Assembly (NCBI GenBank): GCA_000471045.1
Contig: KI301992.1
Span: 1,202,069 to 1,266,068, forward strand
Direction: 5' to 3'
Source of the DNA: an actinobacterium LLX17
GTDB taxonomy: Bacteria; Actinomycetota; Actinomycetes; Propionibacteriales; Nocardioidaceae
DNA: 64,000 nt
The notes beneath the pieces were generated by a model that saw only the letters and a list, made by a program, of their open reading frames with translations, searched no databases and was not told where the DNA came from. Positions 31,701 to 33,917 of this stretch are shown here, in pieces. The translations under genes and the position numbers were made by a program. Position 1 is the stretch's first letter; each line of letters opens with the position of its first letter.

Positions 31701-32367
31701 CGCCGGCATCCGGGGTCAGGCCAGGCTCGCGTCGTTCGGGCTGCCGTCGGTCGTCCCCCCGATCGGCCGCACGCTCGACGTGCGCAGCAAGCTGCTGCTC
31801 GGCACCGGGCCGTACGCCGACGCCGCCGCCGTGATCGAGGACTGCTGGTTGGCTTCCCTCGACTCGTTGGTCGCCAAGCACGGTGGCCCTGTGCGCGACG
31901 AGGACGCGTTCGCGACGCTGGTCGAGGCCCTCCGCCCCGAGGCGTTCGAGCTGACCGAGCGGACGGTGCAGCACGTCCTGCGGGCCTACGCGCGTCTCGG
32001 TGAGCTGCGGCCGGACTCCAGCGAGGCCGGTGAGGACGTGCGCGTCCAGCTGTCGTGGCTCATCCACCCCGGCTTCGTGCGTGAGATGGGTGTCGCGCGC
32101 ATCCACCGCCTGCCGATCTACCTGCAGGCCGCCGCCCAGCGCCTCGCCACACCCGGCACGCCGGAGCCGTTGCAGCGCGCCCAGGACCTCGAGGCCGAGT
32201 TCCACCGTCGCACCGCGGGTCTGCGCCCGTGGCAGCGCCTCGACCCGAAGGTGCAGGACGTCCGCTGGGCGCTCGAGGAGCTGCGCATCAGCCTCACGGC
32301 GCAACGCCTCGGCACGGCGCATCCCATCAGCCTCAAGCGCGCCACCAAGCTCCTCACCACCCTCTGA
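28756..32367 (+). CDS. hrpA: ATP-dependent RNA helicase HrpA
   Basis: 1203 aa DEAH-box helicase. Walker A GETGSGKT at 36-43, DEAH at 130-133, SAT motif in VITSATIDVD, motif V TNVAETSLTVPG, motif VI QRAGRCGR, then HA2, OB-fold and the long C-terminal HrpA-specific region (about residues 700-1203). Family members remodel RNA and rescue stalled ribosomes. The gene starts at an ATG overlapping the upstream stop; a longer upstream reading of the frame runs through the CPBP gene and is rejected. A 49-nt palindrome begins 27 nt after the stop. Confidence 0.95.
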   Translation: MKPGMRLEFDDALPISARREEIADALRDHQVVVVAGETGSGKTTQLPKIAMTLGRERIAHTQPRRIAARSVAKRIAEECDVELGAEVGYAVRFDDQSRDDTKVRLVTDGLLLSEIHHDRELRRYDTIIVDEAHERSLSIDFLLGYLQRLLPRRPDLKLVITSATIDVDRFAALFDAPVIEVSGRTFPVEIRYRPLHESDAADLLDGISSAIEELPREGDVLVFLPGERDIRDAAEHLEGKRYPRTEILPLYGRLAAGDQQKVFSSHPGRRIVLATNVAETSLTVPGIRYVVDPGLARISRFSQRLKVQRLPIEPISQASAAQRAGRCGRVADGICIRLYAEDDFEGRPEFTDPEILRTNLASVILQMSALDLGDIQNFGFLDPPDSRAVADGMGLLRELGAIVDTRGGGTRLTKLGRTMSRLPVDPRLARMLLAADRLGCLADVLVIVAALSIQDPRERPLENQQAADEQHARFRQPDSDFLSWLSLWTYLTDLRAQGSHSAFRKRCQAEFLHYLRIREWQDVHSQLRRTAREMGLKSGDLGAAPDLVHRALLTGLLSHVGLREPDGREFAGARGARFMVFPGSGLAKKPPAWIMAGELVETTRLWARTVARVQPEWIEEAGAHLVKRQHAEPHWSTKRGVAMARERVLLYGLPVVADRLVSLATIDPVLARELFVRHALVQGEWRTNHRFWQHNQDLLREVDEIESRLRRRDLRVDDEVLFEFYDARIPPEVVSVRHFDGWWKKARRDSPALLDLTTDDLLRDEAPDADEFPREWFSEGEPLSLTYTFEPGTVDDGVMVDVPVERLTSVVDEDFAWHVPGHRTELVEALIRSLPKQQRRDFVPAPQVAAEVAPTLDPSQGTLTEAVARALTMRGRAVVKPDDLDLDALPDHLRVRFRVVDGDEELARGDRLAELRERLAPRLRAELVETAKATERTDIRTWDVGTLPEQLAVGQATGYPALVEEAGRVALRVLETPQEQRTAGIRGQARLASFGLPSVVPPIGRTLDVRSKLLLGTGPYADAAAVIEDCWLASLDSLVAKHGGPVRDEDAFATLVEALRPEAFELTERTVQHVLRAYARLGELRPDSSEAGEDVRVQLSWLIHPGFVREMGVARIHRLPIYLQAAAQRLATPGTPEPLQRAQDLEAEFHRRTAGLRPWQRLDPKVQDVRWALEELRISLTAQRLGTAHPISLKRATKLLTTL

Positions 32368-32394
32368 CCACCCCCGTCCCCTCTCCCCAAGTTC

Positions 32395-32443
32395 TGAAGC
32401 GTTGTGCCCCGCTTCACGCCGATTTTCGTGACAGAAGGCTTCA
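32395..32443. repeat. 49-nt palindromic repeat, copy 1 (degenerate)
   Basis: Starts TGAAGCGTTGTG and ends GGCTTCA; the outer 6 bp pair perfectly but inner arm bases have diverged. It matches copy 2 at 36 of 49 positions with no gaps. Sits between the convergent ends of hrpA and the DUF559 gene. Confidence 0.75.
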
Positions 32444-32463
32444 AGGCTCGGGGCATGGGGTGG

Positions 32464-33390
32464 TCAAGCGCGGAACCAGCGGGTCCACTCGGCGCTCAGC
32501 ACCGGCGCGGGGCCTCGATAACCGTTCGCGCGCAGGGCGCGGTGCACGCGCGACGGGATGCTGGCGGGCACGGCCATGTCGGCTTTCGTGATGACGATGT
32601 AGGTCCAGCCGGCGGCCTCGAACAGCTCTCGCCGACGAAGATCGCGCTGCCACGTGGCGGCATCGCGCAGGTGATGCTCCCCGTCGTACTCCACGACGAC
32701 GCGCCATCGTCGATAGACCATGTCGCCGCGGCCGAGGAACTGACCGTGCTCGTCGTGGACGTCGACGTTCAGCTCCGGATCAGGCAGTCGAGCGAAGAGC
32801 AGCATGAGACGTGACCGCGTCTCGCGCGGCGACTCGGCGCCCCGGCGGACGCGGCGCGACACCCGGCGCGCTCGCTGAACGCCATTGAGGTGACGCTCCT
32901 CGGCGTAGTCCCGCAGGTCTTCGGGCGTTGTCAGCCCGCGATGCACCAGATGGTCACCGAACGCGACCAGGTCGACGAGTCCGAGCCTGGGCGCCACGTC
33001 GACGAAGGTGCGATCGGGGCCCGTCACCGGCAGTCCGGACACGAAGCTCGGGTGCAGCATCCCCTGCCGGCGGTGGAGGACGATGCCCTCGTGACGGCTG
33101 GTGAGCGGAAAATTCGTCGAGAAGTGCAGCCGCGGATCCCAACCCGCATCGAACCCGTGCAGCCGCATCGCCGAGACGTGACTGACCACGGCGTCGGCCG
33201 GCAGCACCAGCTGCGCCGCCCTGATCCGCGTCGTGAGGTCCAGCGGAGTCGAGCTGTCCACGTAGACGCCGCGGAAGAGCCGCGTGTAGCGAGGGCCCTC
33301 GAGCTGGCGTCGGCTGATGCCGGCGATGCGAGCGTCAGCGGCGCGGAACGGGCGGGTGGTGTCGAGCTGTGCGGTCGGTCGAGCCTTCAT
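32464..33390 (-). CDS. DUF559 / AbiEi-antitoxin-like protein with predicted endonuclease-fold C-terminus
   Basis: 308 aa. The N-terminus (ARIAGISRRQLEGPRYTRLF, then RGVYV) is the winged-helix start of AbiEi-type antitoxin proteins. The C-terminus (VVVEYDGEHHLRDAATWQRD, then LRRRELFEAAGW) is the DUF559 / very-short-patch-repair-like nuclease core, with E-x-D-G-E-x-H and a following RR..L pattern. Such genes are often scattered as orphans in actinomycetes; no toxin gene lies alongside. A perfect 7-bp hairpin abuts the start codon (33391-33407). The gene is enclosed by inverted copies of a 23-bp repeat. Biochemical role unknown; nuclease activity is inferred from the fold. Confidence 0.82.
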   Translation of the reverse strand: MKARPTAQLDTTRPFRAADARIAGISRRQLEGPRYTRLFRGVYVDSSTPLDLTTRIRAAQLVLPADAVVSHVSAMRLHGFDAGWDPRLHFSTNFPLTSRHEGIVLHRRQGMLHPSFVSGLPVTGPDRTFVDVAPRLGLVDLVAFGDHLVHRGLTTPEDLRDYAEERHLNGVQRARRVSRRVRRGAESPRETRSRLMLLFARLPDPELNVDVHDEHGQFLGRGDMVYRRWRVVVEYDGEHHLRDAATWQRDLRRRELFEAAGWTYIVITKADMAVPASIPSRVHRALRANGYRGPAPVLSAEWTRWFRA

Positions 33391-33407
33391 CCCGCGAGCC
33401 TCGCGGG
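33391..33407 (-). promoter_or_regulatory. Perfect hairpin touching the start codon of the DUF559 gene
   Basis: CCCGCGA-3 nt-TCGCGGG, a 7-bp stem with a 3-nt loop, ends directly at the ATG. The only Shine-Dalgarno-like GAGG lies inside it, so ribosome binding should be hindered unless the hairpin is opened. Confidence 0.6.
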
Positions 33408-33440
33408 CGATGCGCCCCGGGCACCACGAGCACTTCAGCC

Positions 33441-33470
33441 GCTGTGGACAGAAATGTCACCATCCACAGC
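33441..33470. repeat. Inverted repeat upstream of the DUF559 gene
   Basis: GCTGTGGA (33441-33448) and TCCACAGC (33463-33470) are perfect 8-bp inverted arms with a 14-nt spacer, ending 10 nt before the 49-nt palindrome copy 2. Could be an operator or hairpin. Confidence 0.6.
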
Positions 33471-33479
33471 CCCGAGAAG

Positions 33480-33528
33480 TGAAGCGTTGTGCCACGGTTC
33501 TGGCGCGAGACCGTGACACAACGCTTCA
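33480..33528. repeat. 49-nt palindromic repeat, copy 2 (intact)
   Basis: Perfect 12-bp outer arms, TGAAGCGTTGTG and CACAACGCTTCA, with an inner CACGGT/ACCGTG stem and a GGCGCG-type loop. It lies 26 nt beyond the FKBP stop and about 90 nt upstream of the DUF559 start, so it is both an FKBP 3'-region and part of the DUF559 promoter region. Confidence 0.8.
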
Positions 33529-33554
33529 AAATTTGGGGAAGGGAAGGGGTGTGG

Positions 33555-33917
33555 TCAGCCGACGCCCATCAGGTCGATGACGAAGACGAGGGTCTTGCCC
33601 GAGAGGCGGTGGCCGCCGCCGGCCGGGCCGTAGGCCAGCTCGGGCGGGCAGACGAGCTGACGGCGTCCGCCGACCTTCATGCCGGGGATGCCCTGCTGCC
33701 ACGCACCGATCAGCTGCGGGAGCGGGAAACGCGCGGACTCGCCGCGGTCCCAGGAGGCGTCGAACTGCTCGCCGGTGTCGAACTCGACACCCACGTAGTG
33801 GACGTCGACGACGCCACCGGCGACGGCCTCGGGACCGTCACCCTCGACGAGGTCGGTGATCTGCAGCTCGGTGGGCGCGGGGCCCTCGATGAAGTCGACT
33901 TCAGGCTTGGAGGTCAT
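33555..33917 (-). CDS. FKBP-type peptidyl-prolyl cis-trans isomerase
   Basis: 120 aa single FKBP domain: VHYVGVEFDTGEQFDASWDRG, FPLPQLIGAWQQGIPGMKVG and CPPELAYGPAG are the canonical motifs, with full domain length and no signal peptide, so a cytosolic protein-folding catalyst. CAGGAT on the minus strand (33924-33929) lies 6 nt before the ATG, consistent with a leaderless start of the CAnnnT kind. Confidence 0.94.
   Translation of the reverse strand: MTSKPEVDFIEGPAPTELQITDLVEGDGPEAVAGGVVDVHYVGVEFDTGEQFDASWDRGESARFPLPQLIGAWQQGIPGMKVGGRRQLVCPPELAYGPAGGGHRLSGKTLVFVIDLMGVG

Follow-up and report, generated by a model that had tools for sequence, protein, structure and literature searches.

A solitary gene between two palindromes

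The window, i.e., the whole stretch of 64,000 nucleotides that was analyzed, spans bases 1202069 to 1266068 of a single 3.0-Mb Aeromicrobium contig and carries a solitary gene (positions 32464 to 33390, minus strand) for which ORF, profile, and fold evidence predict a 308-aa protein with an AbiEi-like DNA-binding half and an EDxHD/Vsr-type nuclease half. It is adjoined on one side by an hrpA helicase gene (plus strand, ending at 32367) and on the other by an FKBP gene (minus strand, 33555 to 33917), and palindromes fill both intergenic gaps. The 3'-side palindrome (32380 to 32458) starts 6 bp past the nuclease stop codon and 13 bp past the hrpA stop codon. The 5'-side palindrome (33465 to 33543) lies 75 bp upstream of the nuclease start codon and 11 bp past the FKBP stop codon, and the spacer between it and the start codon (33391 to 33464, minus strand) is the presumed promoter region. 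The neighbors being hrpA and FKBP, neither AbiEii nor a methyltransferase adjoins the gene, in agreement with an earlier note on this DNA that had reported no toxin or methyltransferase partner. The single AbiEii match in this genome was below the cut-off and 183 kb from the nuclease gene. An AbiE toxin-antitoxin pair was ruled out since no partner gene adjoins.

The near-perfect 23-bp inverted repeats that had been described around the gene were confirmed. The left arm (32384 to 32406, plus strand) is TCCCCAAGTTCTGAAGCGTTGTG, the complement of the right arm (33517 to 33539, minus strand) is TCCCCAAATTTTGAAGCGTTGTG, and 21 of their 23 bases are identical; the inverted match of the two arms extends to 28 nt at 86%. 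The claim that these repeats are also arms of larger palindromes stood with one correction, namely that each flank is a whole palindrome, beyond the mutual inverted repeat. The right arm forms one half of a strong palindrome (33480 to 33498 with 33510 to 33528, 95%), and the folded right 73-mer had a z score of -5.8, with none of 200 shuffles equally good. This 5'-side copy is intact and scored 79.4 bits with the R1 covariance model (E = 1.8e-16). The 3'-side copy is decayed (fold z = -2.5), yet it scored 64.9 bits with the same model (E = 1e-12).

Domains and catalytic residues of the encoded protein

Residues 1 to 185 (32836 to 33390, minus strand; the boundary is approximate) were assigned by PADLOC and Foldseek to an AbiEi-type winged helix and middle domain, and residues 186 to 308 (32467 to 32835, minus strand) were assigned to a Vsr/EDxHD-type nuclease by profile, fold, and invariant residues. 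The PADLOC AbiEi match of the 308-aa protein had an E value of 6.8e-15. An AlphaFold2 model built from 51 homologues reached a pLDDT of 95.6. Foldseek matched the first half to the AbiEi antitoxin 6y8q (probability 1.00) and the second half to the catalytic domain of the homing endonuclease I-Bth0305I, 3r3p (TM 0.78, probability 0.98), which was also matched in a profile search (E = 0.002). Pfam DUF559 (18.3 bits against a gathering threshold of 20.6) and MTES_1575 (20.6 bits against 38.2) are related but fell below their cut-offs. The Vsr-type nuclease fold that had been suspected at the C-terminus was thus borne out by profile, model fold, and below-cut-off Pfam matches. E190, D223, E234, and H240 are invariant in 51 of 51 homologues, and this invariance suggests selection for nuclease activity.

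According to published work, AbiEi recognizes 23-bp inverted repeats in pairs (PMC7319586), and I-Bth0305I acts as a dimer whose target spans nearly 60 bp (PMC3943268). The size of the palindrome is compatible with both, and a palindrome with arms of 23 to 30 bp would be the expected target of an AbiEi-nuclease fusion.

Dispersed copies of the palindrome

Genome-wide palindrome counts were obtained from pattern and model searches. The R1 covariance model found 13 strong sites (E <= 1e-12) and one weak site in the 3.0-Mb genome and had zero matches in the other genera sampled. Twelve copies were aligned to give the consensus CCCCRAGCTTTGAAGCSTTGYGYCACGG-loop-CCGTGACACAASGCTTCAAAACTTGGGG. Searching with a 12-mer core and allowing one mismatch gave 21 matches, compared with 3 on each strand for the reversed pattern. 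Of the 13 strong sites in this genome, only two flank a DUF559-like gene. The link between palindrome and nuclease held despite this, because three pairs of matches in relatives, about 1.1 kb apart, each enclose a homologue of the nuclease gene. The whole-genome search for the repeats that the earlier note had proposed yielded the 13 dispersed sites, and the association with nuclease genes was found in the relatives. Copy number, the reversed-pattern control, and a control with ordinary genes (see below) ruled out a chance origin of the palindromes. A structured RNA was also rejected: there was no Rfam match except a tRNA, and pair counts among the own-genome copies showed no covariation beyond shuffles.

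Twelve palindromes of the AGAT type are present in this genome. Two further units, G000:C1:162741-163640 (L115) and 438476-439315 (L131), have the palindromes CCAGATGTGATGCCTTGCCGGGG and CCAGATTTGCTGACTTCGCCACCG, respectively, so this genome carries at least three nuclease-palindrome pairs. At G000:C1:970739-971609 (L027, L028), a related gene is split by a TAG stop and represents a decaying member of the family.

Outside the conserved core, the left flanks of the copies are C-rich and the right flanks G-rich (e.g., window positions 32368 to 32383 and 33540 to 33554), and the inverted repeat often continues into these flanks, as in CCAGTCCCC..GGACTGG at dnaB. This composition would fit an entry of the copies into terminator-like hairpins.

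Matching palindromes on both sides of homologous genes

We collected about 70 homologues across 49 Aeromicrobium genomes and searched their flanks for palindromes without using the window sequence. Nearly every homologue is framed by two copies of a gene-specific palindrome of 60 to 75 bp. With both orientations scored, a procedure adopted after inverted flank pairs had been noticed, the same palindrome was present on both sides (score >= 20) in 70 of the 71 Aeromicrobium units and in 38 of the 44 units examined in other Actinomycetes; closely related units are not independent and the genus has about nine orthologous sites, so these statistics partly count shared ancestry. Mismatched 5'/3' pairs reached a score of 20 in 5.5% (Aeromicrobium) and 1.7% (other Actinomycetes) of cases. 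When only the direct orientation was tested, 48 of 71 units ranked first, and L105, an apparent exception under that scoring, matches strongly in the inverted orientation. In 30 units, the two flanking copies are direct repeats of each other. As a control, we scored 349 genes from the window and from twenty 20-kb stretches, 14 of which reached a score of 20. Four of these were nuclease units (scores 37 to 44) and ten were ordinary genes (20 to 25), i.e., 10 of about 345 ordinary genes had matching flanks. The earlier note had allowed that the palindromes might occur with no association to DUF559 genes, which is not what was observed, since cognate palindromes flank nearly all units.

The geometry is fixed, with the center of the 5' palindrome at -118 from the start codon (IQR -124 to -99.5) and that of the 3' palindrome at +34 from the stop codon. 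The outer consensus of the palindromes is CCCCRAG..TTTGAAGC or CCnAGATnTG. Homologues were found in 90 of 148 sampled Actinomycetes genomes, representing 58 of 81 genera (four Aeromicrobium genomes included). Paralogues carry different palindromes in one genus with 10 to 12 copies per genome. In L064 (G035:C1:1830162-1831055), the nuclease part is intact and the N-terminus is apparently frameshifted.

Solitary palindromes and the nuclease of the same genome

A generic palindrome, AGATNTGN{36,54}CANATCT (AGATNTG...CANATCT), was found in 39 of 49 genomes with 336 matches in total, compared with 2 for the reversed control, and the commonest palindrome type reached up to 32 copies per genome. Cognacy was assessed by same-genome matching, a Mann-Whitney test, and a Mantel test, all of which include effects of shared ancestry: of 56 solitary palindromes taken from 12 genomes, 38 had their best match among the 71 units in the same genome (1.5 expected); the five genomes with no detectable nuclease had 0 to 2 palindromes, compared with a mean of 7.5 in the others (one-sided P = 0.018); and protein identity correlated with palindrome similarity (Mantel rho 0.34, the largest of 300 permutations being 0.07). 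For most of the remaining solitary palindromes, the match is the orthologous unit in a sister species.

Apparently orthologous solitary palindromes of G059 and G018 (L252-L271) diverge within an inner stretch of about 7 bp, flanked by a conserved outer box (AGATTTGCTC) and a conserved inner box (ACCTTTCA), and the two arms of this stretch have often changed together. These paired changes suggest selection for pairing or conversion between copies.

Location and spread of the palindromes

By crude ORF calls, 34 of the 37 palindromes inspected were no more than about 70 bp from the 3' end of a gene, and 21 of the 37 lay between convergent genes. This placement, together with the strong hairpins that are formed, is what would be expected of ordinary bidirectional terminators that had been copied by chance and whose association with the nuclease was incidental. 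We regard this explanation as extremely unlikely, since terminators do not share long sequences that correspond to a single nuclease in each genome, ordinary genes are without the same palindrome on both sides, and genomes lacking the nuclease also lack the palindromes (0 to 2 each).

Solitary palindromes behind dnaB and fumC were found in this species only and are absent behind the same gene in 29 other species each. Such species-specific copies require a spreading process, and they argue against a static system in which the protein is an AbiEi-type repressor or a defense nuclease directed against foreign DNA, the upstream palindrome its operator, the solitary copies regulated or protected self sites, and nothing is mobile. 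The protein does have an AbiEi half, both AbiEi and Rv2827c recognize inverted repeats within their own promoters (PMC7319586), and the 5' palindrome is at an operator-like position; a matching palindrome, however, also lies 3' of the gene in almost every unit, and the solitary copies are behind gene ends, not in promoters. A regulator or defense nuclease of this kind is therefore unlikely. Other multi-unit palindromic elements (CGCTGACGnGnGGGTTGCG type) are present at the fumC 3' ends of several Aeromicrobium species (L312, L318, L320, L321, and L328).

The hrpA-FKBP junction holds the unit in 5 of 47 genomes, three times in the orientation of the window and twice inverted, and in one of the inverted units (G030) the gene is reduced to about 92 residues. 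The other 42 junctions are without the unit, eleven of them with stop codons at most 18 bp apart or overlapping. Empty sites at this junction, for which the earlier note had suggested looking, thus exist, and the gene is not fixed there. In G011, the junction contains a single palindrome without the gene, similar to the one that goes with G011's own nuclease. A different long palindrome, mostly of the GGTTTACCA..TGGTAAACC type with a variable but paired interior, was seen at the junction in other species (L212, L213, L220, L221, L225, L230, L231, and L251).

In 60 of 71 cases, a nuclease gene shares its chromosomal site with its closest relative, indicating that the gene is mostly inherited vertically and rarely relocated; a few related genes are at different sites (L109/L143, L084/L114). 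Several orthologous sites hold the gene in both orientations, as recombination between the flanking palindromes would produce. Inversion relative to the neighbors was seen at four orthologous sites (L113 vs L114; L064/L065 vs L066/L115; L131 vs L141; L133 vs L132). In G059 and its close relative G018, the closest pair examined, each inspected solitary copy seems to have a collinear counterpart, which implies that movement of the palindrome is slow. No clean target-site duplication was definable. Judged from these genome comparisons, the gene mostly stays where it was inherited, and it is the palindromes that spread, slowly. The proposal of a mobile or dispersed unit hence held for dispersal of the palindrome and was not supported for the gene with its palindromes as a frequent mover, since most genes are at shared sites, though inverted at several.

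Read literally, the earlier note implied a small transposon, a palindrome-gene-palindrome unit that moves as a whole. Presence and absence of the unit at hrpA-FKBP in both orientations and the few related genes at different sites would agree with this, but it is very unlikely given that the genes are mostly at orthologous sites and that no near-identical copies of a unit were seen within a genome. We also considered a free-standing EDxHD homing endonuclease that cuts solitary palindromes, with repair from a palindrome-gene-palindrome donor inserting the gene and recombination between the flanks leaving solitary copies. The resemblance of the nuclease half to I-Bth0305I, its closest match, the 30 units with direct repeats, and the G011 junction, where a solitary palindrome occupies a place that holds the gene in others, are in its favor. 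This scheme is nevertheless quite unlikely: most genes (60 of 71) hold positions inherited from a common ancestor, the flanking copies are whole palindromes and not halves of one site, the arrival of solitary copies at new places is left unexplained, and no site was found at which the same palindrome type is gene-bearing in one genome and solitary in another.

Proposed mode of action

We favor, with a probability of roughly 70%, a REPtron-like nuclease-palindrome system that is built on an unrelated enzyme and is convergent with REP/RAYT. The solitary AbiEi-EDxHD/Vsr protein would recognize its own palindrome, which frames its gene. It would most likely bind the palindrome as a dimer via the AbiEi half and then nick or cut it, either as a duplex or as an extruded hairpin, and we infer that the palindrome is thereby spread, presumably by nicking and hairpin-end chemistry. 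Repair would copy palindromes from site to site and sometimes into new places, so that solitary copies are kept and slowly dispersed. Copies would come to rest just past gene ends, in most cases in the gap between convergent genes, where insertions survive because they do little harm and where they may double as terminators. The upstream palindrome may also serve as an operator. The gene itself would pass mostly vertically, with occasional inversion, presumably by recombination between its two palindromes, and with rare relocation. Several observations count against this explanation: the shared solitary copies of G059 and G018 point to slow movement, the own-genome copies show no base-pair covariation beyond shuffles, and copy numbers (about 10 to 30) are low relative to classical REPs.

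AbiEi-EDxHD nucleases across the Actinomycetes, each recognizing and spreading its own palindrome (60 to 75 bp) and with new specificities arising repeatedly, probably constitute a second, independently evolved class of dispersed-palindrome systems in bacteria. Until now, the chief case of a nuclease that is inherited vertically and maintains small genomic palindromes has been REP/RAYT. If our reading is correct, the REPtron-like way of life evolved more than once, with an unrelated enzyme; a very common unannotated actinobacterial gene family, labelled DUF559 or 'AbiEi antitoxin', would have a function; and nature would offer dozens of nuclease-target pairs whose specificities are long and diverse.

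Comparison with known systems

RAYT genes have been described as invariably flanked by two REPs, with which they coevolve, and REP abundance as tied to the cognate rayt (PMC2817692); these three statements on flanking, coevolution, and abundance largely hold for the nuclease-palindrome system. As in REP/RAYT systems (REPtrons), the gene lies between two copies of its own palindrome, and the palindrome type tracks the gene, with several pairs possible per species (PMC2817692, PMC3733652, PMC8266576). Extragenic copies are likewise dispersed in the same genome, their abundance tied to the cognate gene. The enzyme, in contrast, is an AbiEi-EDxHD/Vsr protein, whereas that of REPtrons is an HUH Y1 tyrosine transposase. 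The palindrome here is about 60 to 79 bp, compared with 20 to 40 nt for REPs with a GTAG (or CGTC) head, and GTAG is missing; there are about 10 to 30 copies instead of tens to hundreds, and the flanking copies are direct or inverted. A Y1 transposase (PF01797) was absent in 49 of 49 Aeromicrobium genomes, with positive controls (E. coli; 5 of 14 genomes), which ruled out RAYT-driven repeats. The comparison first drawn in the earlier note, of a unit that resembles REP elements and their transposases in logic but not in its protein, has good support from cognate flanks, same-genome solitary copies, co-divergence, absence of a RAYT, and empty sites.

The N-terminal half shares its fold with the AbiEi antitoxin (S. 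agalactiae AbiEi; M. tuberculosis Rv2827c), and the binding of AbiEi to 23-bp inverted repeats near its own promoter (PMC7319586) fits the palindrome arms. Unlike in the AbiE type IV toxin-antitoxin system, no AbiEii nucleotidyltransferase toxin gene is adjacent, a nuclease is fused, and the palindrome is also at the gene 3' end and dispersed. The C-terminal fold and catalytic residues are like those of I-Bth0305I and Vsr-type nucleases (DUF559, MTES_1575), and the presumed target is long, as is that of the I-Bth0305I dimer (nearly 60 bp; PMC3943268). Unlike in an EDxHD homing endonuclease, there is no intron location, the recognition part is AbiEi-like, and the target is unsplit. The feature of a homing gene, a gene splitting its site at allelic positions or lying in an intron or intein, is absent in the family, with intact palindromes on both sides and solitary copies at unrelated places. 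The MTES_1575 Vsr-REase of the HEPN survey (PMC3710099) also has a related nuclease domain and a winged helix in one protein, but there they are part of a very large HEPN defense protein, and no palindromes were described (PMC3710099). Searches of the open-access literature turned up neither a description of such a system nor a paper that connects palindromes with DUF559 or Vsr-type genes. The system lacks one tested defining feature of each of three families; we therefore regard it as new by descent, although its logic, REPtron-like, is already known.
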